Assembly: GCA_903896015.1 (NCBI GenBank)
Contig: CAITWF010000068.1
Coordinates: forward strand, 1-41,504
Direction: 5' to 3'
Length of the DNA: 41,504 nt
Source: an uncultured Opitutia bacterium
GTDB taxonomy: Bacteria; Verrucomicrobiota; Verrucomicrobiia; Opitutales; Opitutaceae
Part shown: piece after piece, positions 26,238-40,906 of the stretch
Layout of the letters: every line of letters starts with the position of its first letter
How positions within the stretch are numbered: the first letter of the stretch is position 1
The notes under the pieces: model-generated
Databases searched by the model: none
The model's input: the letters and a program-made list of their open reading frames with translations, nothing else
Told to the model about the DNA's origin: nothing
Program-made: the position numbers and the translations under genes

Positions 26238-28442
26238 TCAGTCTTGAAAGGGCTCCGCCTCGATCACCACGCGGCGGAGTTCACCGGTGAAATTCGCCGG
26301 CGACGCGTAATCCTCGCTCACCGGCGTGAACAAATCGCAGCCGAGGTCGAACGATTCGTGCGAGATCACGACCATCACGCGCGGCACGCGGCCGCGGCCG
26401 ACTTCGCGACCATCAATGCTGATCGCCACGTCCGCGCCGCCCGCCGGATTAAGCGCGAAGGAAACACCGACCTGCTTCGCGTGGCTGAGCTCGAGGTCGC
26501 CGGTGATGGTGGTGCGCTCCATGCCCGCGTAGTTGTAGTGAAAAATCAGGCGGTCGTGATGCGCGTAGAGCGACCACCCGGCGAAGCGACCGCCCAAAGC
26601 CGCGATCACGCCACTCGGCGATGCCGCGCTCTCGCCGAGATCGGCGGTGAGTGTCCACGAGCGTTTGCGCAGATCCGGTGCAGAGCCTTTGTGCACGCCA
26701 CTCACCGGCGGAAAAAATTCAAAATGTTGGGCCAGCACCGGCGAATCCGCGGGAAACAGCAGCTCTCGTGCGCCCCGACGGTCGTCGAGCGGGTAAACGT
26801 CGTTTGCCTTCGCCTCGCGTTCCCATGCGGCGATCAGCTCGGCGAGTTTCTGCGGCTGGGTTTTCGCGAGGTCGCGCGTCTCGTTGAAATCGTGCCCGAG
26901 ATCGTAGAGTTCCCACGCGTCGCTGGAGAACGGCGTGCCCGGCGCGTGAAACGTCACCGCCTTCCAGCCGTTTTCGTAGATCGCGCGGTGGCCGTAGATC
27001 TCGACGTATTGCGCGGTGCGGTGCGACGGCGCGGCCGCGTCGGCCCACGTGTAGGCCATGCTCGTGCCGGCGAGCGGCGGCTGCGCGCGGCCGTCCAAAT
27101 TTTTCGGCGCGGTCGTGCCCGCCGCCTCAAGGATCGTCGGCAGCAAATCGACGACGTCGTGAAATTGTGGGCGGACGGTGGCATCGGGTTTGATGCGCGC
27201 GGGCCAGCGCATGATGAGCGGCACACGCGAGCCGCCCTCGTGGGTGGTGCCCTTGGTGCGGCGAAACGGCGTGTTGCCCGCCATCGTCCAGCCCGTCGGG
27301 TAAGTCGGATAGGCCGTCGGCGATCCCAACTCCGAAAAATGCGCGAGGCCGTCGGCGGCGCGATCGAACGTGTCGGTCGTGAACAGACGGACCTGGTTCC
27401 ACATGCCCTCAGGGCCGCCTTCTGGACTCGCACCGTTGTCGGAGGCGACGATCACGAGCGTGTTCTCGCTGAGCCCCGCGCGATCGAGGTAGTCGAGGAG
27501 TCGGCCAAACTGCGCATCGGTGTGCTCGACGAAACCCGCGAACGTCTCGTAGTAGCGCGCGTAGAGGCGCTGCTCGTCGGCGGAGAGCTCGGCCCACGCT
27601 TTCACCCCGGGATTGCGCGACGGGAGTTGCGTGTCGGGCGGCACGAGGCCGAGCGCCTTCTGGCGCGCGAGTGTTTCCTCGCGCGCGACATCCCATCCGC
27701 GATCGAATTTGCCGCGCCATTTTCCCAAATACTCCGGCGGCGCCTGATGCGGCGCGTGGCCCGCGCTGTAGGCGAGGTAGAGGAAGAACGGCGACTGTGG
27801 CTGAGTCGCGCGCTGCTCCGCGATGAAGCCGATCGCATGATCGGTGAGGTCAATTTCCGAGTGCAGTGGCGAGCCGTCGGGGCGCGCGGGCGGGATTTTG
27901 ATTCGCTCGCGATCGCGGAAAAGTTCCGGTGCCCACGGATTCGTTTCGCCACCCATGAAGCCGTAAAAATGATCGAAGCCCTCGCCGGTCGGCCAATGCG
28001 TCGACGGCGCGCCGGGGTTGAGTTCGGTCATCGGGATGAGGTGCCACTTGCCGATCGCGGCGGTGCTGTAGCCGGCGGCGCGCAAGTAGTCGGCGACAGT
28101 GCCCGCGTCGGCGCGGATGCCGCCGCGGCTGTTGGGCTCACCGTTCGCGAACTCCGCGATGCAAGCGACGCCGACGGCGTGAGGGTTGCGTCCGGTGAGG
28201 AACGCTGCGCGCGTCGGCGAGCATACGGGCGCGACGTGAAAATTGTTGTAGCGCACGCCGGCCGCCGCGACGCGATCAATGTTGGGCGTTGCGAGTGGCG
28301 CACCAAAACAGCCGAACTGCGCAAACCCGAGATCGTCCATCAGGACCACAATCACGTTGGGCCGGGCCGGCGCGCCCACCGCCAGCGCCGTCGTCGTGAT
28401 TCCCAGTATTCCGATCAGCGGGAGCAGGCGCAGGTGTCGCAT
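26238..28442 (-). CDS. Sulfatase (arylsulfatase family), exported
   Basis: The protein has 734 residues from the ATG that starts MRHLRLLPLIG, a signal peptide. A longer in-frame start at 28481 would put 13 extra residues in front. The metal-binding LMDDLG motif is at residues 34-39, and the formylglycine motif CSPTR is at 74-78 followed by FLTGRNPH, so the cysteine should be matured to formylglycine by a separate enzyme that is not in the window. Further metal and substrate residues lie in VASDNGAS and the GGSRVPLIMRW segment. The C-terminal 200 residues form a beta-rich extension. It is probably a polysaccharide or aryl sulfatase; substrate unknown. Confidence 0.92.
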   Translation of the reverse strand: MRHLRLLPLIGILGITTTALAVGAPARPNVIVVLMDDLGFAQFGCFGAPLATPNIDRVAAAGVRYNNFHVAPVCSPTRAAFLTGRNPHAVGVACIAEFANGEPNSRGGIRADAGTVADYLRAAGYSTAAIGKWHLIPMTELNPGAPSTHWPTGEGFDHFYGFMGGETNPWAPELFRDRERIKIPPARPDGSPLHSEIDLTDHAIGFIAEQRATQPQSPFFLYLAYSAGHAPHQAPPEYLGKWRGKFDRGWDVAREETLARQKALGLVPPDTQLPSRNPGVKAWAELSADEQRLYARYYETFAGFVEHTDAQFGRLLDYLDRAGLSENTLVIVASDNGASPEGGPEGMWNQVRLFTTDTFDRAADGLAHFSELGSPTAYPTYPTGWTMAGNTPFRRTKGTTHEGGSRVPLIMRWPARIKPDATVRPQFHDVVDLLPTILEAAGTTAPKNLDGRAQPPLAGTSMAYTWADAAAPSHRTAQYVEIYGHRAIYENGWKAVTFHAPGTPFSSDAWELYDLGHDFNETRDLAKTQPQKLAELIAAWEREAKANDVYPLDDRRGARELLFPADSPVLAQHFEFFPPVSGVHKGSAPDLRKRSWTLTADLGESAASPSGVIAALGGRFAGWSLYAHHDRLIFHYNYAGMERTTITGDLELSHAKQVGVSFALNPAGGADVAISIDGREVGRGRVPRVMVVISHESFDLGCDLFTPVSEDYASPANFTGELRRVVIEAEPFQD

Positions 28443-31173: not shown

Positions 31174-32115
31174 TCACAACTCTTCGTCGCGCGACGCGCC
31201 GAGGGCGGATGCCGCGGGATTTTCGCGCACGCGCTCCAGCCATTCGGCCATCAACGGATCGCGCGCCGCTTCCCGTTCCGGCCACGGCGCGCCCACCAAA
31301 TCTATCACGCGCAGCGCGCCGTCGTCGCAGCGCACGAAATTCCGCGCGTGCAGATCCGCGATGAGAAACGCGCGGTCGCCGAGAAAAAGCAGCCGCGGGT
31401 GATCGCGATTCGCCCGCAGGAAGCGCGACGGAATTTCGATCAGTCCGCCGGGCAGCACGCCCGAGACATCATCACCCTGCGGCAGCGGCTCGCCGAGCGC
31501 CTGCTTCGCGACGACGATTCCCTCGGGCGTGACGGCGATCACTTCCGTTGCCATTCCGCCGAGCGCGTGGATTAGCAGGAGTTTTTCCAACAGCGCGCGG
31601 TAGTCGCCGAGCCCCGCGTCCGCTTGCAACGCCGTCTCGTCGCCACGCCGAAAGCCAAACTCGCTTCCGATCTTCTTTTCCTCGCGCGGGAGGTAAAATT
31701 TATAGACCGAACCGCCATCGTCGGGCGCGGCGAAGCACCACGCCTCAACGCCGCCGCCGATGCGCCGGAGCTTTTCGTTGGGCTCCTCCAGCGGATTTTC
31801 GATCTCATCGCTCGCCGAAAACCCAAACTGATCGAGCCGTATCAGCGGCAGCAGCGCCCGCCAGCCGCGAATCGCAGCGTCGAACTCATCCCACTCGCGG
31901 CCGGCACCAACGAGCAACGCTACTTCGTCTTCGCCGAGCGTGACGAGATCGCGGTCCGAATTTTCTCCGACACCGCATTCTTTTGCTGCCGCGCCGAGGC
32001 GAGCGAGCGCCGCCAGTCGTCGCTCGTGATCGTCTTGAAGAGCGCGTCGGTCTTGTGCTCCCGGGAGGAGCCGCCCGCGGATGCGTGTGGTTTGGCCGGT
32101 GAAGAGGTCTTGCAT
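31174..32115 (-). CDS. Kinase-fold protein, probably of the polyvalent-protein kinase type
   Basis: The protein has 313 residues and is soluble. No family was recognised with certainty. The C-terminal half has kinase-like marks: a candidate ATP-binding lysine in SVYKFYLP (about residue 140), then FLIADLHARNFVRCDDG (a DLHxxN catalytic loop near 252-258) and RVIDL, the metal-binding Asp. This order resembles the Ser/Thr/Tyr kinase domain described in polyvalent phage proteins (Kinase-PolyVal), though here it stands alone. The N-terminal 130 residues are charged and of unknown type. It follows the CNNM-family gene in the same direction after 86 bases, so co-transcription is possible. Confidence 0.6.
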   Translation of the reverse strand: MQDLFTGQTTRIRGRLLPGAQDRRALQDDHERRLAALARLGAAAKECGVGENSDRDLVTLGEDEVALLVGAGREWDEFDAAIRGWRALLPLIRLDQFGFSASDEIENPLEEPNEKLRRIGGGVEAWCFAAPDDGGSVYKFYLPREEKKIGSEFGFRRGDETALQADAGLGDYRALLEKLLLIHALGGMATEVIAVTPEGIVVAKQALGEPLPQGDDVSGVLPGGLIEIPSRFLRANRDHPRLLFLGDRAFLIADLHARNFVRCDDGALRVIDLVGAPWPEREAARDPLMAEWLERVRENPAASALGASRDEEL

Positions 32116-32201: not shown

Positions 32202-33530
32202 TCAGCTCGCCTTCTGCACGGGAGCCGCCGGCGTTTTACCGACGAGCACCTTGTCGACGCGTCGCCTGTCCATGTCGACGACCTCGAATCGCCAGCCGCC
32301 CCAGTCGAACCGATCGCCAGCCGCCGGAATGCGGCCGAACTGCGTCACCACAAAGCCGCCGAGCGTCTGAAACTCCGCCGACGCCTCGTTCGGCAGCGCC
32401 GCGTCGATCCCGAGCAGCGTTTTCAGTTCCGCCGTCGGCAGTGTCGCATCGATCAGCCACGAGCCGTCCTCGCGTTTCTTCGCCTCGGGCTGCGCGCGAT
32501 CACCCTTCTCGGGCAGGTCACCGACGATCGCCTCCATGACGTCGATCAGCGTGACCAGGCCCTGCACGGCGCCAAACTCGTCGGTCACGACCGCGATGTG
32601 CTTGCCGGTTTTCTTGAACTGCTCAAGCAGCTGGCTCGCCGCCATTTTTTCCGGCACGAGCAGCGGCGGCAGCAGAAGATTTTTCAATGACGTCGGCAGC
32701 CCGATCGCCGAGTGCGCCCAAAGCGCCTTCACCGCGACCATGCCGACGATCTGATCGCGGTGGCCCTGATACACAGGAAAATACGAGTGACCGCTCGTTA
32801 CGATCTTCCGCCAGTTCACCTCCTCGGGATCGTCGAGATTGAGAAAAACGATCTTCGGCCGCGGCGTCATCAGCGTCGTCACGAGCCGCTGATCGAGCGT
32901 GAGCACGCCCTCGACCATCTGCTGTTCGGCACGCTGAAACACGCCCGCGTGCAACCCCTGCTCGATCAGAGCTCGGACCTCGTCGTCGCCCACGGTCTCG
33001 GCCGCGCTGCGCGGTTTCACGCCGGAGATTTTCACGAGCGCCTCGGTTGCGAGTTCAAAGATTCGCAGCAGCGGCGCCGCGAGCCAAGCGAGCCCGCGCA
33101 TCGCGCCCGCGAGCGCCGAAGCCACTTTTTCCGGCTGCGCGAGGCCGATGCGTTTCGGGACGAGTTCGCCGAAAAGCAGCATCAGCGACGTGAGCCCGAC
33201 TGTCACGATCCCGAGCGCCAGCACGTGGGCCGACACATCGAGCGCAAAGCTCGCACGCAGCCTCGTTTCAACCGGATCGACGAGCCGGGCACCGGCCAGC
33301 ACACCCGCGATCATGCTTGAGAGCGTCAGCCAGAATTCCACCAGCGCGAGGAAGCGCGTGGGTTGCTCGGCCAGCGCGAGCGCTTGGGCGGCACCGACAT
33401 TACCCTTCGCGGCGAGTTTCTTAAGCTTCGATTTCCGCGCCGAGATGACCGCCGTCTCCGCCATCGCGCACAGGCCGTTCGCGAGCACGAGCAGGGCGAG
33501 AATCAATAGCTCAAACGGCAGGCTCAGCAT
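32202..33530 (-). CDS. CNNM / CorC-HlyC family membrane protein with CBS pair
   Basis: The protein has 442 residues. Residues 1-190 form the DUF21 (CNNM) transmembrane domain with several hydrophobic helices and the AETAVISARKSKLKKLA segment typical of the family. A CBS-domain pair spans about 200-330 (LMTPRPKIVFL and VVTDEFGAVQGLVTLIDVME). A CorC_HlyC domain closes it (LGGFVVTQFGRIPAAGD). Members are linked to magnesium or cobalt efflux. They are often annotated as haemolysins without good reason. The start ATG was placed at 33530, since 13 additional upstream residues (start at 33569) would precede the first membrane segment. Confidence 0.9.
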   Translation of the reverse strand: MLSLPFELLILALLVLANGLCAMAETAVISARKSKLKKLAAKGNVGAAQALALAEQPTRFLALVEFWLTLSSMIAGVLAGARLVDPVETRLRASFALDVSAHVLALGIVTVGLTSLMLLFGELVPKRIGLAQPEKVASALAGAMRGLAWLAAPLLRIFELATEALVKISGVKPRSAAETVGDDEVRALIEQGLHAGVFQRAEQQMVEGVLTLDQRLVTTLMTPRPKIVFLNLDDPEEVNWRKIVTSGHSYFPVYQGHRDQIVGMVAVKALWAHSAIGLPTSLKNLLLPPLLVPEKMAASQLLEQFKKTGKHIAVVTDEFGAVQGLVTLIDVMEAIVGDLPEKGDRAQPEAKKREDGSWLIDATLPTAELKTLLGIDAALPNEASAEFQTLGGFVVTQFGRIPAAGDRFDWGGWRFEVVDMDRRRVDKVLVGKTPAAPVQKAS

Positions 33531-33571
33531 GGGATATACGGAGGCTAGCTCGCAGCGCGCGGCTGGCAACC

Positions 33572-33625
33572 CTGTAGGCGGGCTTTGCGCCCGACAGGTC
33601 CCGGAGCGTAAAGCCCGACCTACAG
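33572..33625. repeat. 54-base imperfect inverted repeat containing a stop codon
   Basis: The arms CTGTAGGCGGGCTTTGCGCC and the inverse of GGAGCGTAAAGCCCGACCTA plus CAG form a long interrupted hairpin. It fills most of the gap between the SDR and CNNM genes, and its outer end provides the TAG stop of the SDR gene (33620-33622). It may damp read-through, but no T-run follows. Confidence 0.7.
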
Positions 33626-34393
33626 CGCCGCGAGCAATCCGCCGTCGACCGCGAGCATTTGACCGTTCACGAAATCGCTCGCGCGCGACGAGAGAAACAC
33701 CGCCGCGCCGATCAGTTCCTCCGGCTTACCCCAGCGTCCGGCCGGCGTGCGGCCACAGATCCATTTATTGAAGTCGGCGTTGGCCATGAGCCCGCGGTTC
33801 AACTCCGTCTCCATGTAGCCCGGCGCGATCGCGTTGCACTGAAGTCCGAGCTTCGCCCACTCAACGGCCATCGATTTGGTGAGCATTTTCACGCCGCCTT
33901 TCGCCGCCGCGTAATTTCCGATCGTTGGGCGGCCGACCTCGCTGATCACCGAAGCGATGTTGATGATCTTGCCGGCGCCGCGCGCGATCATCCGCGGCGC
34001 TACGGCTCGCGCGACGAGAAACACACTCGTGAGATTCGTGTCGATTACCGCACGCCACTGTTCCTCGGTCATCTCGGCGAGCGGGGCGCGCTGGTGGATA
34101 CCGGCGTTGTTCACGAGAATGTCGATCGCGCCGAACCCCGCCTCAATCTCCTCGACCTCGCGCATCGCGGCGGCGCCGTCGGTCACGTCAAACGCCGCCA
34201 TCGCCACACGCGCGCCTTCAGCATCCAGCGCTTTCGCGGCCGCGGAAAGTTTTTGTTTGTCGCGGCCATTGAGCACAACCGCCGCGCCCGCCTGCGCAAG
34301 CCCACGCGCAATCGCGAAGCCGAGGCCTTGGCTGGAGCCGGTGACAAGCGCCGTGCGCCCGGTGAGATCGAAGAGGGGATTGGTTTCAGGCAT
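33620..34393 (-). CDS. SDR oxidoreductase, gluconate 5-dehydrogenase / 5-keto-gluconate reductase type
   Basis: The protein has 257 residues. The classical SDR layout is complete: VTGSSQGLGFA NAD(P)-binding loop near residue 18, NNAGIHQR near 92, the Ser-Tyr-Lys set in IASVISEVGRPTIGNYAAAKG, and the end FLSSRASDFVNGQMLAVDGG. The closest relatives recalled are IdnO/Gno, with RTPAGRWGKPEELIGAAVFL nearly unchanged. The KduD type is an alternative, which matters because KduI is related to the IolB family member in this operon. Its GTG/ATG spacing fits co-transcription: the transporter stop is 6 bases upstream. Confidence 0.88.
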   Translation of the reverse strand: MPETNPLFDLTGRTALVTGSSQGLGFAIARGLAQAGAAVVLNGRDKQKLSAAAKALDAEGARVAMAAFDVTDGAAAMREVEEIEAGFGAIDILVNNAGIHQRAPLAEMTEEQWRAVIDTNLTSVFLVARAVAPRMIARGAGKIINIASVISEVGRPTIGNYAAAKGGVKMLTKSMAVEWAKLGLQCNAIAPGYMETELNRGLMANADFNKWICGRTPAGRWGKPEELIGAAVFLSSRASDFVNGQMLAVDGGLLAAL

Positions 34394-34399
34394 AAATTT

Positions 34400-35650
34400 T
34401 CAGGAAAGTTCGATTGCACGCACGCGACCGGCGAGCAGAAACAGCGCGCCCGTCGCCAGCGGCGCGAGCACTGCTGCCGTGATCAGGATCGGCGTGTAGG
34501 AAAAATGGTCGACCACCCAGCCGGTCGACAGCGTGAAGATCACCGCGCCGACGCCCGCCGCCGTGCCCGCGAATCCCGCGATCGAGCCGACGGCGCCAAC
34601 CGGGAAGAAATCGCTCGGCAGCGTTTGCACGTTACCGACCCAAAATTGAAACCCGAAACACGTGATGCACATCCACCCAAGCGCCGCATACGGCGACGCC
34701 GCGAACGCCGTCGCAAAGCCCGTTGTCATGCACGCGGTGCCGATGAGGATCGCGGTCTTGCGCGCGCGGTTCACGTCGTCCGTGCGCCGCAGCAGCCAGC
34801 CCGAGAGCCAGCCACCGCTGAGCGCACCGAGCGCCGCTGCGACGAACGGCATCCAACCAAACGCCGCGATTTCCTTCAGCGAAAAACCGCGCGCGTTGAA
34901 GAGATAAAGTGGCAGCCAGTTCAAGTAGAGCCACCAAATCGGATCGCCGAAAAAGCGCGCGAGCACGATGCCCCACACTTCGCGCCGCCGCAGGAGCACG
35001 CTCCACGGCACCGGCTTGTGCTGCACCGCCGCCGCGAGCCCGGCCGATGAGGCCACGCCTCGCCGTGGATAAAAAATCAGCCACAACGCGAGCCACATAA
35101 AGCCCAGCGCGCCCGTCGCGAGAAACACCGTGCGCCACCCGAAGCTGAGCTGCATCCAGATAATCAACGGCGGCGCGAGCGCGGGACCGAGCGACGCGCC
35201 CGTGTTTGCGATCCCCATACCGAGGGCGCGTTGCCGCGCCGGAAACCACGCGGCAACCGTGCGCGTCGCGCCGGGCCAGTTGCCCGATTCGCCCGCGCCG
35301 AGCGCCGCGCGCAGCCCGCACAAACTGCCGAGTCCGCGCGCCGCCGCGTGCGCGATTTCCGCGACCGACCAGAGGACGACCGCAAGCGCGAAGCCGGTGC
35401 GGTTGCCGAACCGATCGAACACCGCGCCCCACACGAACATCGACGCTGCATACGCAAAAAGAAACGCCGAGCCGATCCACGAATACTGGACGTTGGTAAG
35501 ATGAAATTCCGCCTGCAGCACCGGCGAGAGCACCGGTATCGCGAGGCGGTCGAGAAAGTTCACGACGGTCCCGAGAAAAATCAGCGCGATGATCACCCAG
35601 CGCCACGGATGCTCGCCATTCCCTGGGGTTGGGGTGGCGGGAGGGCTCAC
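34400..35650 (-). CDS. MFS transporter, anion:cation symporter family (ExuT-like)
   Basis: The protein has 416 residues and about 12 predicted membrane helices. It starts FLGTVVNFLDRLAIPVLSP, the N-terminal signature of the hexuronate/glucarate (ACS) group, and has the loop WGAVFDRFGNR plus GAGESGNWPGATRTVAAWF, typical of ExuT relatives. It probably imports a sugar acid with protons or sodium. The start is GTG at 35650, which overlaps the IolB stop codon by 4 bases (GTGA). This is sequence-level evidence for translational coupling. Confidence 0.9.
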   Translation of the reverse strand: MSPPATPTPGNGEHPWRWVIIALIFLGTVVNFLDRLAIPVLSPVLQAEFHLTNVQYSWIGSAFLFAYAASMFVWGAVFDRFGNRTGFALAVVLWSVAEIAHAAARGLGSLCGLRAALGAGESGNWPGATRTVAAWFPARQRALGMGIANTGASLGPALAPPLIIWMQLSFGWRTVFLATGALGFMWLALWLIFYPRRGVASSAGLAAAVQHKPVPWSVLLRRREVWGIVLARFFGDPIWWLYLNWLPLYLFNARGFSLKEIAAFGWMPFVAAALGALSGGWLSGWLLRRTDDVNRARKTAILIGTACMTTGFATAFAASPYAALGWMCITCFGFQFWVGNVQTLPSDFFPVGAVGSIAGFAGTAAGVGAVIFTLSTGWVVDHFSYTPILITAAVLAPLATGALFLLAGRVRAIELS

Positions 35651-36495
35651 TTGAATTTATCCCGCATCGCCTGAATGCCCGGGATCTTCGCCATCAGGTG
35701 CGCGTGCCCCGGCTCGAAACTCTGCACGAGCGAACGCTGATGTCGTCCGACAAGAATCGTGAAGATGTAACCCTCATGGCCCGGCGCTCGCAGCGTCGGA
35801 TGATAACCGCGATCGATGCAAAACGTGTCACCGTGTCGCGTCATCACCACGCTCGGGTCCGCGCCGCCGCCGTTTTCCTGATAACAAAACTGCGCGCCAA
35901 AACCGTTCTCCGGCCGATAGCGGTAGTGATAAATTTCCTCGAAGTCCGTTTCCTCCGGCGGGCGCTCCGTGTCGTGCTTATGCGGCGGGTAGCCCGACCA
36001 GCAGCCTTCGTCGCCGTAAAGTTCGCTCACCAGCAGGTTGCCCGCTCGGCCTTCTGCATTCTGCCCGAGGAGGTGAAAAATTCGCCGCCGCGAATGCGTT
36101 TCCTTCGAGCCAACCTCGACCATCTCGACCTCATCCGGCGTGATGCGAAACGGCGCAAAAGGCGTCGTGCACACGCCGCCCGCGACCGCGACTTCCGTGT
36201 CGTCGCGGAGCGCGCGTACGGTCACACGCGGACACGTCCCGCTATAAACCGAGTCCGCCGGCCCATCCCACACGCTCGCCCGGTGGCCGACGCGCGAAAA
36301 CGATTTCCCTCCCGCCGCGATCTCCGCCTGCCCCGTCAACACCGCGCACAGCAACTCGCACCGCGGCTCATCGATCGTCACCGACTCACCCGCGCGCAGC
36401 CGCAGGAGATTAAAATAACTCAACGCGAGCGGACCCTTGCCCGGCTCAACGAGCGGGGCGTTGCGATTGTCGGAGGCGCGGAGGAGTTGGGGCAT
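35647..36495 (-). CDS. iolB: 5-deoxy-glucuronate isomerase (IolB family)
   Basis: The protein has 282 residues from the ATG that begins MPQLLRASDN; a longer frame upstream to 36615 overlaps the PIG-L gene and is not conserved-looking. Two-cupin IolB features are seen: the metal-binding GYPPHKHD near 182-189, ETDFEEIYHYRYRPENGFGA, GDTFCIDRGYHPTLRAPGHE and ILVG. The enzyme turns 5-deoxy-D-glucuronate into 2-deoxy-5-keto-D-gluconate in inositol breakdown. No iolC, iolD, iolE or iolG lies in the window, so this gene may serve a different uronate-like substrate here. Confidence 0.9.
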   Translation of the reverse strand: MPQLLRASDNRNAPLVEPGKGPLALSYFNLLRLRAGESVTIDEPRCELLCAVLTGQAEIAAGGKSFSRVGHRASVWDGPADSVYSGTCPRVTVRALRDDTEVAVAGGVCTTPFAPFRITPDEVEMVEVGSKETHSRRRIFHLLGQNAEGRAGNLLVSELYGDEGCWSGYPPHKHDTERPPEETDFEEIYHYRYRPENGFGAQFCYQENGGGADPSVVMTRHGDTFCIDRGYHPTLRAPGHEGYIFTILVGRHQRSLVQSFEPGHAHLMAKIPGIQAMRDKFK

Positions 36496-36523
36496 GACTG
36501 TGGGTTCACCACGGACGAGAGCA

Positions 36524-37390
36524 CTACAAACTGAATTTTCTGATCCGCACTGCAACGTCGGATCGCAGACTCTCGATGTGCCCGGCGGTAAAGTCGGCGA
36601 CGGAGAGTGTTTCATCGTTCACCAGTGGCGTGAGATCCATCGCGAACGAAAGCGCGCTGGCCGTGTCGGTCGCGTGCGAGGCGTAGAACGTGGCGTTGGC
36701 GAGGCGGCGACCCAGCGCGGCGAGATCGTAGCGTTTGCCGCCGGCGATCTGCGAGGCGAAGACGGCGACGAGTTTCTCCGCGAGCGCGGGATGCGCGCCG
36801 GCGTCGAGCGGCACCTTCTGGTCGTCGGCGAGCCAATCGAGATCACGCCAGCCTTCGACGCCGAGGACGCGGGCCGGTCGTTGGGCGCGCGGGAGCGCGC
36901 GCAGCGCGTCGAGGCAGCGGAGCAGGCAGGCGACGTGCGTGTCGTGCTTGTCGGCGGGCTGGTGCAGATAGACGACCGACGGACGGCAGCCGGCGAAAAT
37001 CGCGGCGAGGTCGGCGGTGACCGCAGGGTGACCGGGGGTTTTCACGTCGGCGCTCGGGTGCGCAAGCTGGAGCTGAAGGTTGTATTTCCCGAGCGCGGCC
37101 GCAGCGCGCTGCTCCTCGCGACGGATGCCCTGCATCTCGGCGTCGGTCACGCGCGCATATTGGCCCGTGCGGGCCGAGCCGGCGCCATTGGTCATGACGA
37201 CGCCCGTGAAGAACCGATCGGCGCGACCATAGCATTCGGCGACGGCTGGGTAGGCGTTGATCTCGATGTCGTCTTGATGCGCGATCACGCAGAGATGCGT
37301 GGTGCGGGCGAGCGCAGCCGCGGGCGCGAGGCCGGCGGACGGACCGGAGTCGGGGACGAAAATGTCGGCGTCGGGACGGGAGAGTTTCAT
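36524..37390 (-). CDS. PIG-L family deacetylase
   Basis: The protein has 288 residues. The zinc-binding AHxDD motif is AHQDDIE at 37-43 (usually AHPDDIE), and the third ligand region is HQPADKHDTH near 143-152. The family removes N-acetyl groups from amino sugars such as GlcNAc-inositol, GlcNAc-PI or chitobiose. No signal peptide is seen, so it is cytoplasmic. Its ATG overlaps the stop of the NahK-like gene by 4 bases (ATGA), and iolB starts 28 bases after its own stop, so the three are surely co-expressed. Confidence 0.9.
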   Translation of the reverse strand: MKLSRPDADIFVPDSGPSAGLAPAAALARTTHLCVIAHQDDIEINAYPAVAECYGRADRFFTGVVMTNGAGSARTGQYARVTDAEMQGIRREEQRAAAALGKYNLQLQLAHPSADVKTPGHPAVTADLAAIFAGCRPSVVYLHQPADKHDTHVACLLRCLDALRALPRAQRPARVLGVEGWRDLDWLADDQKVPLDAGAHPALAEKLVAVFASQIAGGKRYDLAALGRRLANATFYASHATDTASALSFAMDLTPLVNDETLSVADFTAGHIESLRSDVAVRIRKFSL

Positions 37391-38496
37391 GAGGGTCCAA
37401 AGACATCGCTGACGATACGCGCCATCGCGTCGCGTTCGCGCTCGATGCTCGCGACGAGCGCAAACTGCGTGCGCGCACGATCGAGGTTGTGGCCGGTGCG
37501 CGCGATCCGAAAATAGACGTCGCCCTGAAGGTGATCGGCGAGGAAACGCAGGCCGGTCTCGAACGCGAGCAACTGGCCGGCGAACCCGAGATGCGCGCGC
37601 TCGGTGGCGTTGAGCACGCTACCCGCGCTCTCGAGGTAGCCCTCCACCAGCGCGCGAAAATACGGCAGCACGACGTGCATCTGCGTCGCGTCAGGATTAT
37701 CCTCGACGGTTGAGCACGCTGCCGTGCGTACCATGTCGCCGAAATCGTAGAGCGAGAGCCCGGGCATGACGGTATCGAGATCGATCACGGCGGCGGACCG
37801 GCCGGTCGCGTCGTCGAGCATGACGTTGTTGATCTTAGTGTCGTTATGCGTGACGCGCTCCGTCAACTCGCCGCGCGCAAGCAGACCGAGGAGCACGTCG
37901 GTATCCGCTTCACGGGCCAACGCGAAATCGATCTCGGCGCGCACGGCGGCGGCGCGCCCCTGCGCGTCCGTGCTCACCGCGCGGCGCAGCGCCTCGAAGC
38001 GGCTCCGCGTATGGTGAAAATTCGGGATCGTCTCGTGCAGGCGCGCGCCCGGCAGATCGGCGAGCTGCGCCTGAAACTCGCCAAACGCTCGCGCGGCCTC
38101 GCGCGCCTGTGCGGCATTCGTCACCCGATCGACCGAGTGCGCCTGCTCGATGAAATCGTAAACGCGCCACCAGTTACCCGCGGCCTCCTGGAGGCACATT
38201 GACCCAGCGCGCGTCGGCACGAGCGCGAGTGCCCGCGGCGACTTGGCCGCGAGATGAGCGGTGACCCGTCGGATGTTCTCCTGGAGCGCCGGCACATTTT
38301 TAAAAATGTGGTGATTGATTTTTTGCAGAACGTAGCGCCGCCGGCCGCTTGAGGTCGCGCAGGTCAGCGCAAACGTTTGGTTGATGTGGCCGCTGCCGTG
38401 CAGCGCGGCGGCCACGAGCCGCCCTTCCAGCGAAAACTCCGCGGCAATCGGCGCGAGTTCGGCGAGCCAGTCTTTGTTTTCAGTCGATGCGCTCAT
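37387..38496 (-). CDS. Anomeric sugar kinase of the N-acetylhexosamine 1-kinase (NahK) / APH group
   Basis: The protein has 369 residues from the ATG beginning MSASTENKDW; the longer frame upstream overlaps the nucleotidyltransferase. NahK-like marks are GSGHINQTF near 49-57, YVLQKINHHIFKN, the catalytic THNDTKINNVML and the metal-binding VIDLDTVMPG. This group phosphorylates HexNAc sugars at C1. Together with the nucleotidyltransferase directly upstream it would make an NDP-sugar. Its start overlaps the nucleotidyltransferase stop by 4 bases (ATGA). The actual sugar cannot be read from the sequence. Confidence 0.88.
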   Translation of the reverse strand: MSASTENKDWLAELAPIAAEFSLEGRLVAAALHGSGHINQTFALTCATSSGRRRYVLQKINHHIFKNVPALQENIRRVTAHLAAKSPRALALVPTRAGSMCLQEAAGNWWRVYDFIEQAHSVDRVTNAAQAREAARAFGEFQAQLADLPGARLHETIPNFHHTRSRFEALRRAVSTDAQGRAAAVRAEIDFALAREADTDVLLGLLARGELTERVTHNDTKINNVMLDDATGRSAAVIDLDTVMPGLSLYDFGDMVRTAACSTVEDNPDATQMHVVLPYFRALVEGYLESAGSVLNATERAHLGFAGQLLAFETGLRFLADHLQGDVYFRIARTGHNLDRARTQFALVASIERERDAMARIVSDVFGPS

Positions 38497-39389
38497 GCCC
38501 ACAATTTTTCCGGATAAAGCCCGCGGCCCACGAGCTCCGCAATCGCTGCGGTCACGCGCGGCTTGTCCTCGCGATACGTCACGCCGAACCACGCGCTGGC
38601 CGTCGGCAGCACGCGCACCGTGGCCTGTCCGCGCGTGATTTGCTCGGAGACGGCGGCGGGCAAATAAAACTCCGACTTCGCGTCACCGCCGCGCGCCGCA
38701 AGAAATTCACGCCATTGCCCGTCGAGCGCGGTGAACAACGCCGGCGTAAAGCCCCAGCAATTCATCGAGACAAGTTCGTCGCCGGTGAATTTATTTCCCG
38801 CCCCTGCGCCGACCTCGCTAGCGAGGATGCCGGTCTGCTCGGTGATCGAGCGAAGCGCGCCGGCCGCGTCGGCCACACACACGCCGCGCGACACCGCACC
38901 GTGCTCGGAAAGGGTATTGGCGAGCCGGAAGCCGACCATCGCGAACGCCGGTCGCTTCAACGCAAGCCCGTCCTCGCCCTGCAGAAACGCCCCGAGCTGC
39001 GCAAACGAGTCGGCGCCGTAAAAATCGTCGGCGTTGATCACGGCAAAGTTTTCCTTCACCGCCTCGCGCGCGCACCAGACCGCGTGACCCGTGCCCCACG
39101 GTTTCTCGCGTCCCGCCGGCACGACGGAGCCCGCCGGCAACGCATCGATCGACTGAAAAACATAATCAACCGCGATCGTCCCGGTGTAGCGCGCGCCGAT
39201 TTTTTCGCGGAAGAGCTCTTCAAAATCCTTCCGGATGACGAAGACCACGCGGCCGAAGCCCGCGCGCCGCGCGTCGAACACCGCGTAGTCGAGCACCGTC
39301 TCGCCCGACGGGCCGACCGGATCGATTTGCTTCAGGCCACCGTAGCGCGAACCCATGCCGGCGGCGAGAACGAGGAGCGTGGGTGACAT
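38493..39389 (-). CDS. Sugar-1-phosphate nucleotidyltransferase
   Basis: The protein has 298 residues from the ATG at 39389; the frame continues 47 codons upstream but into the neighbouring gene. The N-terminal signature is LVLAAGMGSRYGGLKQID (residues 5-22), with AVINADDFYG near 112 as the metal and sugar-binding segment. It transfers a nucleotidyl group to a sugar 1-phosphate, giving an NDP-sugar and pyrophosphate. The gene pair with a NahK-like kinase is one also seen in other sugar-using bacteria. The nucleotide and sugar are unknown. Confidence 0.88.
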   Translation of the reverse strand: MSPTLLVLAAGMGSRYGGLKQIDPVGPSGETVLDYAVFDARRAGFGRVVFVIRKDFEELFREKIGARYTGTIAVDYVFQSIDALPAGSVVPAGREKPWGTGHAVWCAREAVKENFAVINADDFYGADSFAQLGAFLQGEDGLALKRPAFAMVGFRLANTLSEHGAVSRGVCVADAAGALRSITEQTGILASEVGAGAGNKFTGDELVSMNCWGFTPALFTALDGQWREFLAARGGDAKSEFYLPAAVSEQITRGQATVRVLPTASAWFGVTYREDKPRVTAAIAELVGRGLYPEKLWA

Positions 39390-39427
39390 GGCCGCGAGCA
39401 GAAGCGATTGCGCCGCGCGGTCAACGC

Positions 39428-40906
39428 TCAGCTCGCCCACAGCCGCCGTTGCGCCTCGACAAAGCGCCCAACGATGGGGCCCTGCTGGAGATGGCGGCCG
39501 TTGACCACAAGCTGCCGCCCGCCGATCCACACTTCGCGAATCGCGCGACGCTCAAGCGAAAAGACGACGTTCGCGAGCAACGCGCCGTGCTCCGCGCCCG
39601 CGATCGACAGATCGAAAAGGTTGACGGTGAAAAAATCGGCTGGCCGTCCCACTTCGAGCGCACCGCCCGTCGCACCGAGCGCGCGTGCGCCGGCGACGGT
39701 CGCAGCGTGAAACAACATGTTCGCAACCTCCGGCGCGAGCGCCGCGCGCGATCCGCGCGACGTTCGCAACGCGTAGTCGAGCAACCGCGCGTCTTCGAGC
39801 AGATCGATCTGCACCTGCGCATCGGAGCCGAGCGCCACGGTCGCGCCGGACGCGAGCAGTTTTTCGATCGGCGCGAGGCCGAGGCCGAGATTGCGCGCCG
39901 AGGTCGGACACGCGATCACCGCCGCGCGCGCGGTGCCAAGCGTCTTGATTTCATCGTCTGTCAGATGGGCCGCTCCGATCGCGGCGAAGCGTTTGTCGAC
40001 GAGTCCACGCTCCGCGAGCCACGCGACCGGTGTGCGCTGGTGTGCGGCGGTCCAGGCTTCCACGTCAGCGGCGGCCTCTGCCACCGGCACGTGCAACCGC
40101 ATCCGCTGCGCGTGCGCATACGCCGCGATCGTTTTTAGTTCGTCGGCCGAGACGGCACCGAGGCCGTTAATCGCGAGACCGAGCCACGCCTCGTCGGCCG
40201 GAAAATTTTTCTCCATCCAGAGTCGGAGCGCTTCAGTGTCGCGCAGAAACGCGTCCGTCGCGCCCGACTGCGTGCGCGCTGGGCCGGTGTTCGCGTTCGC
40301 TACGCTGAACAGCGAGATCCGGATGCCCACTTCGTGCGCCGCGCGCAAAATCTCCTGTGCCACCCGGTTCGGCTCCGCGCTCGCCGCGGCGGCGCGATGC
40401 AGTTCGTGAAAATCGCCCACACACGTGATGCCAGCCGCGAGCATCTCCAAAAACACCATCCGCGCGGTGTCGAAAATCTCCTCGTCGGTCAGCCGCTCCG
40501 TCGCTCGCGCAAGCGCCTCGTGCCACGGCGCGCGCGGATCGTTCGCGACGCGCGACCGCGTTTCCGCCCGGCCGCGGGCGACGCGGTGCCACGCGTGCGA
40601 GTGAGCGTTGACGAGTCCCGGCAGGACCGCCTGCCCGGAAAGCCGTCGCGCCATCGCGAGATCTTTTTCCTCGCGGGAGAAACGTGCGATGCGGCCTTGA
40701 GCGTCGGCAAAAAACGCCACGCCCGACTCGAATTTTTCCCCGGTGAATACGCAGTCGGGCAGCCAGCCGAGCTCGCGTGGAGCCGCCGGCACGACTGGTT
40801 TTGGCAATGGCGCGGGAATCGCCGCTTTCGCGACCGGCGCGGAGGCGCGCGGCGCAGGCAGCCGGCTGTTCGCGGGACGCGATTGCATCATCGGTGGTTT
40901 TGCCAT
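39428..40906 (-). CDS. HutF-like amidohydrolase (formimidoylglutamate deiminase homologue) with a degraded active site
   Basis: The protein has 492 residues. It starts with a roughly 45-residue Pro/Ala-rich stretch without family similarity, then a complete amidohydrolase barrel. HutF-like segments are VNAHSHAWHRV (H102, H104), FLEMLAAGITCVGDFHELH, PVAWLAERGLVDKRF and IACPTSARNLGLG. Compared with Pseudomonas HutF from memory, H206 is N247, R209 is G250, H232 is P274 and H269 is G311, and the His of SDSHV is Q364. E277 and D362 are kept. Formimidoylglutamate deiminase activity is therefore doubtful. It may be inactive or use another substrate. It leads the minus-strand operon; the nucleotidyltransferase starts 38 bases after it. 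Confidence 0.75.
   Translation of the reverse strand: MAKPPMMQSRPANSRLPAPRASAPVAKAAIPAPLPKPVVPAAPRELGWLPDCVFTGEKFESGVAFFADAQGRIARFSREEKDLAMARRLSGQAVLPGLVNAHSHAWHRVARGRAETRSRVANDPRAPWHEALARATERLTDEEIFDTARMVFLEMLAAGITCVGDFHELHRAAAASAEPNRVAQEILRAAHEVGIRISLFSVANANTGPARTQSGATDAFLRDTEALRLWMEKNFPADEAWLGLAINGLGAVSADELKTIAAYAHAQRMRLHVPVAEAAADVEAWTAAHQRTPVAWLAERGLVDKRFAAIGAAHLTDDEIKTLGTARAAVIACPTSARNLGLGLAPIEKLLASGATVALGSDAQVQIDLLEDARLLDYALRTSRGSRAALAPEVANMLFHAATVAGARALGATGGALEVGRPADFFTVNLFDLSIAGAEHGALLANVVFSLERRAIREVWIGGRQLVVNGRHLQQGPIVGRFVEAQRRLWAS

Follow-up and report, generated by a model that had tools for sequence, protein, structure and literature searches.

A run of seven genes in an Opitutaceae genome that may join N-acetylhexosamine salvage to uronate isomerization by an IolB-like protein

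Gene clusters of the kduI-kduD and dhuD-dhuI types, and hybrids of the two, have been described across 3,550 genomes, and in the accessible portion of that article all 16 of the combinations considered use KduI or DhuI as the isomerase (PMC12838403). Members of the Opitutales are described as lyase-rich uronate users, and the accessible part of the description of Verruconatronum lists several alginate lyases, including PL38, together with KduD, KdgK and KdgA (PMC13274419). Here we analyze a run of seven genes on the minus strand, at positions 33620-40906, of a contig from an uncultured member of the Opitutaceae (contig CAITWF010000068.1; the window, which is the whole contig of 41,504 nucleotides). 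The run contains a cupin isomerase that is like IolB, a transporter of the major facilitator superfamily (MFS), and a short-chain dehydrogenase/reductase (SDR), directly after genes for a sugar-phosphate nucleotidyltransferase (NT), a kinase and a PIG-L family deacetylase. We propose, with a probability of about one half, that these are two adjoining modules: one (module A) would salvage N-acetylhexosamines (HexNAc), and the other (module B) would isomerize and reduce unsaturated uronates by means of the IolB-like protein and the SDR. Judged by titles and the openings of abstracts, and among the matches listed, the openly licensed literature gave no description of this gene set or of an IolB-type isomerase in lyase clusters.

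The seven genes and their proposed roles

The original prediction had described seven closely spaced genes on the minus strand, three of them joined to the next by 4-base overlaps. All seven open frames were found in place, with families that match:

39428..40906, minus strand: HutF-like protein of the amidohydrolase superfamily (Amidohydro_1 and HutF models, below cut-off)
38493..39386, minus strand: sugar-phosphate nucleotidyltransferase, NT (PF12804, MobA-like NTP transferase, 27.3 bits for a cut-off of 27)
37387..38496, minus strand: NahK-like phosphotransferase (PF01636, APH fold; its ATG at 38496 overlaps the NT stop)
36524..37390, minus strand: PIG-L family de-N-acetylase (PF02585, 50.7 bits for a cut-off of 28.2)
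35647..36495, minus strand: IolB-like cupin isomerase (PF04962, KduI/IolB, 219 bits)
34400..35650, minus strand: MFS transporter of the galactonate/ExuT-like type (PF07690, MFS_1; TIGR00893, 243 of 395 bits)
33620..34393, minus strand: SDR of the gluconate 5-dehydrogenase/DhuD/KduD group (PRK07523, 355 of 413 bits)

The three overlaps, read from the sequence, are between NT and kinase (38493-38496), kinase and PIG-L (37387-37390), and IolB and MFS (35647-35650, with a GTG start). The remaining gaps are 41 bases between the HutF-like and NT genes, 28 between PIG-L and IolB, and 6 between MFS and SDR. A codon-usage gene caller also picked these seven genes, with shorter starts for some; it had been trained on the same seven and three neighboring genes and is not independent of them. 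Between 31000 and 41504 there were no sigma-70-like promoters (1.1 in shuffled sequences) and 21 terminator-like sites (11.8 in shuffles, standard deviation 4.2), none of which fell in the gaps among the seven genes. From the spacing, we infer that the genes may be transcribed as one unit. Some of the names are loose, as the IolB-like, HutF-like and MFS proteins all score under the curated cut-offs of their best models.

In module A, the NahK-like kinase would convert an N-acetylhexosamine to HexNAc-1-phosphate, the nucleotidyltransferase would turn this into a nucleoside diphosphate sugar (NDP-sugar), and PIG-L would deacetylate an amino sugar that then takes a different route. In module B, the MFS protein would import uronate-type monomers. 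Unsaturated uronate freed by lyases would open to 5-keto-4-deoxyuronate (DHU, or DEH), which the IolB-like cupin would isomerize to 2,5-diketo-3-deoxygluconate, and the SDR would reduce the latter to 2-keto-3-deoxygluconate (KDG). With this isomerization the IolB-like protein would stand in for KduI or DhuI. Because KduI and IolB both perform ketol isomerizations of uronate-like sugars, the change of substrate would be chemically small. All of the substrates named here are putative, and the two modules might be used together on a polymer of uronate and amino sugar, possibly sulfated, which their adjacency would fit.

The IolB-like isomerase and the genes around its relatives

The IolB-like protein had a single match among NCBIfam models, the IolB equivalog, at 152 bits for a cut-off of 205; classical IolBs from six plasmid iol clusters scored 329-356 bits on the same model. 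Residues H172, H174, E187 and H232, which we take to be the metal-ligand positions, were invariant in 19 homologues, and the predicted structure had a predicted local distance difference test (pLDDT) value of 80.8. Identity was 22-26% to five KduI proteins, 30-33% to four IolBs from Opitutaceae iol operons, and 29-35% to the classical IolBs from the six plasmids. In a tree of 50 proteins (values are FastTree support/ultrafast bootstrap), the classical IolBs formed their own group (0.997/97), as did the IolBs of Opitutaceae iol operons (1.0/100). The window type comprised 31 proteins, including five from Alphaproteobacteria, and was joined by two Rhodobacterales proteins at 0.94/84. We read this lineage as one that borders on inositol-type metabolism and appears to have left it.

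The nearest named homologues of the IolB-like protein came from Lacunisphaera, Opitutus and unclassified Opitutaceae assemblies. At an identity of at least 54%, this IolB type gave 37 rows in 37 of 200 family genomes, two of them partial, and 14 further rows were at 29-36%. Matches were also found in 237 plasmid records. In a spread of 40 of these, 15 were at 54-58% (mostly Rhizobium), two at 40-43%, and 23 at 33% or below.

Genes around the relatives of the isomerase were surveyed at 54 loci, of which 46 were complete and non-redundant after 3 partial and 5 duplicate rows had been dropped. Of the 37 family rows 20 were fetched, and three loci came from the PIG-L survey described below. Denominators are the loci with enough flank, and counts from related genomes are not independent. 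An SDR gene was present within 6 kb downstream of the IolB-like gene at 25 of 37 loci, and an MFS homologue within 3 kb downstream at 15 of 42. Lyase genes of family PF05426 lay within 3 kb upstream at 9 of 38 loci, and approximately 0.07 would be expected by chance, as computed from 41 PF05426 rows in 12 genomes (about 68 Mb). The family was checked at two loci (L122, 311 bits; L123, 258 bits). A sulfatase gene was within 10 kb at 12 of 28 loci.

Individual loci show how these genes are arranged. In the sister species (genome G001), locus L151 has three sulfatase-like genes, two lyases, and the IolB (84%), MFS (71%) and SDR (90%) homologues in a row. A GH88 (glycoside hydrolase family 88) enzyme is encoded upstream of the IolB-like gene in L126; the window's genome (G000; 4.96 Mb, 98% complete, with the window as contig C68) has three GH88 genes over cut-off, all on other contigs. 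In Devosia (L138) the SDR gene and the IolB-like gene share 4 bases, and a gene for a GH39 enzyme comes after them. On a Rhizobium plasmid the IolB-like gene stands between genes for a Dpp-type ATP-binding cassette (ABC) transporter and a GH39 gene, and a Phyllobacterium plasmid likewise has Dpp-type ABC transporter genes ahead of its IolB-like gene, while kdgD is 8 kb away; neither plasmid has an SDR gene beside the IolB-like gene.

The SDR is separated from the IolB-like gene by one gene, that for the MFS protein. Its nearest model is gluconate 5-dehydrogenase, and its solved relatives are 5u9p (299 bits), 4z9x (240), gbs1891 4u8g (222) and 4z9y (197). We take 4z9x and 4u8g to be DhuD enzymes and 4z9y to be KduD.

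A trio of other genes was seen near module B homologues. In L137, genes for a mannose-phosphate-isomerase-like (MPI-like) cupin, a hydroxyacid dehydrogenase and a protein of 627 amino acids follow the IolB-like gene and the SDR. In L193, on contig C51 of the window's genome, a PF05426 lyase gene comes a few genes after what look by eye like the same three.

A wider proposal, which we put forward tentatively and with the odds against it, is that the IolB-derived clade, found in Opitutaceae, Spartobacteria and Alphaproteobacteria, left inositol and now serves lyase-released uronate together with a DhuD-like SDR. Some Opitutaceae would have coupled it to the HexNAc kinase, NT and PIG-L, and would thereby treat the uronate and the amino-sugar half of one polymer from a single locus. 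If this were true, part of the proteins annotated as '5-deoxy-glucuronate isomerase' would sit in the wrong pathway, lyase products could be processed even in genomes that lack kduI and dhuI, and the IolB-like gene would help to identify the Opitutaceae that feed on sulfated, uronate-rich polysaccharides.

The amino-sugar genes and the weighing of alternatives

The kinase aligned over nearly its full length (residues 16-368 of 371, phmmer) with the solved NahK structures 4ocj and 4wh1 (E values 2.4e-83 and 2.6e-83). The best solved match of the NT was 3pnn (E 2.3e-91), which is named only 'conserved domain protein'. An NT-kinase pair with a 4-base overlap was found also on a Hymenobacter plasmid. 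The window PIG-L keeps AHQDD and HDTH, corresponding to AHxDD and HxxH, presumably the zinc motif of PIG-L de-N-acetylases. In seven homologues AHQDD and both histidines of HDTH were invariant, and the D of HDTH was present in six of the seven. The structure model of PIG-L was weak (mean pLDDT 58.4); its fold matches start with chitobiose deacetylases and LnmX, with MshB among them, and point only to the PIG-L fold. PIG-L was present in 59 of 61 family genomes, in one as a fragment, and in 72 of 95 genomes overall, and no plasmid homologues were found at an E value of 1e-5.

Genes were called in the window and in 74 stretches anchored on PIG-L. Of these 75 sequences, 62 had PIG-L among the called genes. 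The gene counts are lower bounds, since some genes, and entire loci with a different base composition, escaped the caller. Called genes were NT (24), a NagB-PIG-L fusion (19), a 468-amino-acid protein (16), the kinase (14), the HutF-like gene (6), IolB (4) and SDR (4). An NT-(kinase)-PIG-L set is recurrent in relatives, sometimes behind the HutF-like gene. In other Opitutaceae the same PIG-L family follows the NagB-PIG-L fusion, and often the 468-amino-acid protein, with GH20, sodium:solute symporters (SSF) and AraC regulators nearby. The fusion, GH20 and symporter neighbors point to amino sugars for this PIG-L family. No gene in the 62 family genomes searched was over the NagA cut-off, and 50 of them had weaker matches. 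In the window's genome a 188-bit NagA-like gene is one gene away from a NagB-like gene, and a full-strength NagB is encoded elsewhere. The wide PIG-L family beside NagB and GH20 is a candidate amino-sugar deacetylase where no gene passes the NagA cut-off.

Two further gene families were observed around module A. A protein of 468-470 amino acids (L081:7876-9285 and homologues) is encoded mostly directly upstream of PIG-L, at 20 of 74 loci, or 16 of 75 with a stricter clustering of genes, and mostly between PIG-L and the NagB-PIG-L fusion gene or its neighbors. The one copy tested had no Pfam, NCBIfam or significant PDB match; the protein is a candidate amino-sugar kinase or similar enzyme. A GH116-family gene stands directly before the kinase, with a 4-base overlap, in L038, L039 and L040 (family checked in L039).

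The first gene of the run was labeled HutF-like in the original prediction. The label stands for the superfamily (331 bits on the HutF model, cut-off 413) and falls for a working HutF. We aligned the protein with Pseudomonas aeruginosa HutF (3mdu), from which positions are counted, and with four HutF proteins encoded in hut clusters; the annotated HutF of L179, which lies outside a hut cluster, was excluded. Residues H56, H58, R209, H232, E235, H269 and D320 presumably have metal, substrate or catalytic roles. The window protein keeps the counterparts of H56, H58, E235 and D320, and has P at H232, G at H269 and G at R209. R209 is absent from all 10 Opitutaceae copies compared, and each has also lost one or more of H58, H232, E235 and H269. 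Six genomes in the PIG-L survey have the HutF-like gene (G000, G001, G004, G024, G031, G054), and none of them gave a hutH match; 3 of the 21 genomes searched have hutH. We therefore rejected a role as a working formimidoylglutamate deiminase or histidine-pathway enzyme, given that hutH was not found in the genome and metal or catalytic residues are lost. The protein is probably a degenerate amidohydrolase or one with another role. Because the copies in other Opitutaceae are 50-72% identical to the window protein, the gene is kept, perhaps as a protein without deaminase activity. It lies directly or one gene upstream of NT at all eleven loci where both were seen (window, L031, L032, L034, L035, L042, L114, L116, L123, L125, L127). 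Homologues have lost metal or catalytic residues in varying combinations, yet the adjacency to NT is kept.

Several observations weigh against the two-module proposal. The fold of the isomerase model is nearer to the IolB-like 2qjv (template modeling (TM) score 0.80) than to KduI (0.59-0.67), and a KduI profile scores the protein at 11.8 bits, an iol-operon profile at 67.7. On the equivalog model, the IolBs of four Opitutaceae iol operons reach 89-107 bits, less than the window protein; because they also miss 205 bits, that cut-off is a weak criterion. Without the two Rhodobacterales proteins the window-type clade is weakly supported (0.81/54). Its nearest outside relatives, from Marivivens (44%) and Limimaricola (41%), have class II aldolase genes as neighbors, together with iolC or with both iolC and iolD. 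Given these neighborhoods, the lineage may have its origin in inositol-type metabolism and might act on a related substrate even now. Among the surveyed loci, 12 of 37 had no SDR within 6 kb and 29 of 38 had no lyase within 3 kb; there is no lyase beside the run in the window, and the PF05426 genes of its genome are on other contigs. For the final aldolase step, the eda match in this genome reached 144 bits for a cut-off of 156 (PF01081, the KDPG/KHG aldolase family, passes at 115 bits), and the neighbors of the eda-like gene are by eye of acyl-CoA type, not uronate genes. For module A, the kinase is absent from many NT-PIG-L loci, and 12 of 62 family genomes gave no NagB match; among these, G002, G011, G018, G025 and G044 have NT ahead of PIG-L.

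Because NT stands next to PIG-L in genomes that gave no NagB match, catabolism of glucosamine 6-phosphate does not fully describe module A, which can exist without deamination of that sugar phosphate, and activation or biosynthesis is a serious rival, somewhat unlikely in our estimate and still the strongest of the alternatives. By this explanation the kinase and NT would make a uridine diphosphate (UDP)-amino sugar for an envelope glycan or a small thiol, PIG-L would deacetylate an intermediate, and the uronate neighborhood would be merely inherited. The near-universal presence of PIG-L in the family is consistent with this, and in L053, L057, L068, L072 and L074 the PIG-L gene lies inside a conserved run of unrelated-looking genes. 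Arguing for salvage instead are the association of the same PIG-L family with the NagB-PIG-L fusion, GH20 and sugar symporters in other Opitutaceae, and the GH116 enzyme near PIG-L at three loci.

Conservation of the gene order bears on whether the modules work as one. The exact uninterrupted order of seven genes was found only in the window among the loci examined; the modules themselves are not unique and recur in relatives. Locus L032 has six of the seven genes, the kinase being absent, with two extra genes inserted. All seven are present in L123, where the HutF-like gene is truncated by the end of the stretch, and an AraC-type regulator on the opposite strand and genes for a TonB receptor, a lyase and a sulfatase lie between PIG-L and IolB. 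The same position holds regulator, TonB receptor, lyase and sulfatase genes in L156 and a lyase gene in L161. Modules A and B adjoin in several species of Opitutaceae. These arrangements suggest that the seven-gene run is a local junction of two separable modules.

An alternative that we consider unlikely is a single seven-gene operon for the import and breakdown of a glycosaminoglycan-like disaccharide of uronate and amino sugar. The tight spacing of the genes speaks for it, as do the lyase, sulfatase and TonB receptor genes between the modules in L123 and L156 and the lyase in L161. PIG-L is within 10 kb upstream of IolB at 11 of 35 loci, or at 8 of 32 once three loci taken from the PIG-L survey are left out, and the window has a sulfatase gene with an SGSH_C domain (26238-28442) on the same strand, approximately 5 kb downstream of the run. 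In the sister species, a further PF05426 lyase gene is back to back with the HutF-like gene of locus L031, which reads HutF-NT-kinase-PIG-L-SDR. However, L031 and the IolB-MFS-SDR genes of L151 are on different contigs of that species, and the opposite-strand AraC-type regulator splits the run in L123 and L156 (family checked in L123 only). In addition, PIG-L is nearly universal in the family (59 of 61 genomes) and this type of IolB is not (37 of 200). The single pathway of the original prediction was not borne out by these data.

It is more doubtful still that the IolB-like protein is a second hexuronate isomerase, converting glucuronate or galacturonate to fructuronate or tagaturonate, with the SDR reducing the product and the pair replacing UxaC and UxuB. 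In the accessible portion of one study, overexpression of KduI in E. coli gave extracts with better conversion of galacturonate and glucuronate (PMC3578941). The adjoining MFS protein is ExuT-like, and the window's genome has no uxuA over cut-off (82.5 of 199.55 bits). On the other hand, UxaC is encoded separately and at full strength in this genome (634 bits) and is present in 8 of 8 genomes searched, so ordinary glucuronate does not need the IolB-like enzyme. Homologues of the isomerase also lie behind lyases, whose products are unsaturated.

A myo-inositol or N-acetylglucosamine (GlcNAc)-inositol salvage pathway is very improbable. Three observations point to it: the sole NCBIfam match of the isomerase is IolB, its nearest outgroup relatives lie in inositol-type clusters, and the weak structure model of PIG-L matches, among other folds, that of MshB (a GlcNAc-inositol deacetylase). 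Against it, the best iolD match in the window's genome is 233 of 715 bits (iolD, the one gene searched of iolD, iolE and iolC, is over cut-off in 4 of 12 genomes). The IolBs encoded in iol operons, both of relatives and of plasmids, belong to other groups, iolD in L189-L192 (877-897 bits) is next to another IolB type, and Marivivens carries a classical iolB in addition to the related one. For PIG-L, the first fold matches are to chitobiose deacetylases and LnmX. The Marivivens (L215:5983-6837) and Limimaricola (L216:6007-6861) relatives, both on plasmids, are located between iolC and a class II aldolase gene. The classical iolB of Marivivens is approximately 2 kb from the related gene, and two IolB types thus coexist there.

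The original prediction had joined amino-sugar genes to an inositol/uronate set, as a hypothesis in one salvage pathway. The joining of amino-sugar genes to a uronate-type set held, and both sets adjoin in other Opitutaceae as well. Its interpretation was partly right, on amino sugar and uronate, and probably wrong on inositol and on one pathway. The most interesting aspect of these genes is a probable change of pathway for an IolB-type isomerase.

The gene after the run (32202..33530, minus strand) encodes a CNNM/CorC-type membrane protein with CNNM, CBS and CorC_HlyC domains; it is not part of the proposed pathway, and such a gene is near PIG-L or SDR in several relatives too. At the end of the SDR gene and in the gap to the CNNM gene (33560-33623), the sequence GTAGGTCGGGCTTT...AAAGCCCGCCTAC could by eye form a hairpin. 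This pattern occurs once in the window, and a repeat search gave no inverted repeat between SDR and CNNM. Further on, a protein of 313 amino acids (31174-32115) has no Pfam or NCBIfam match. Its relatives follow SDR, PIG-L or CNNM genes in several Opitutaceae, and are within 5 kb downstream of the IolB-like gene at 9 of 36 loci with enough flank.

Comparison with described systems

The HutF-like protein belongs to the same superfamily as HutF and aligns with it overall. It differs in that the neighbors of the window gene are not hut genes, and that Arg209 and two metal or catalytic positions are replaced. The kinase is homologous to solved NahK, which we take to be the N-acetylhexosamine 1-kinase of the galacto-N-biose/lacto-N-biose (GNB/LNB) pathway of Bifidobacterium, and it adjoins a sugar-phosphate nucleotidyltransferase. 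Unlike that pathway, the window block has no GNB/LNB phosphorylase gene and has a PIG-L deacetylase attached.

The isomerase shares with IolB, the 5-deoxyglucuronate isomerase, the Pfam KduI/IolB family and the presumed metal ligands, and its nearest outgroup is in inositol-type clusters. It differs from IolB in scoring under the equivalog cut-off, in falling outside the IolB groups of iol operons, and in that no iolD is over cut-off in its genome. Verruconatronum is of the same order as the window host; the accessible part of its description lists KduI/UxaC and DehR, with no occurrences of IolB (PMC13274419).

In the KduI-KduD and DhuI-DhuD clusters, as far as the accessible portion of their description goes (PMC12838403), the difference is that the window isomerase is on the IolB side, that an MFS gene often lies between isomerase and reductase, and that the host belongs to the Verrucomicrobiota. 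The window pair would work as these clusters do if our proposal is right; because its isomerase is not a KduI by sequence, we do not count it as a KduI-KduD member. The likeness is that an isomerase gene is near an SDR reductase gene, with module B of the relatives following polysaccharide lyases; the window SDR is in the DhuD/KduD group, and the cupin has the KduI/IolB fold with the presumed metal ligands.

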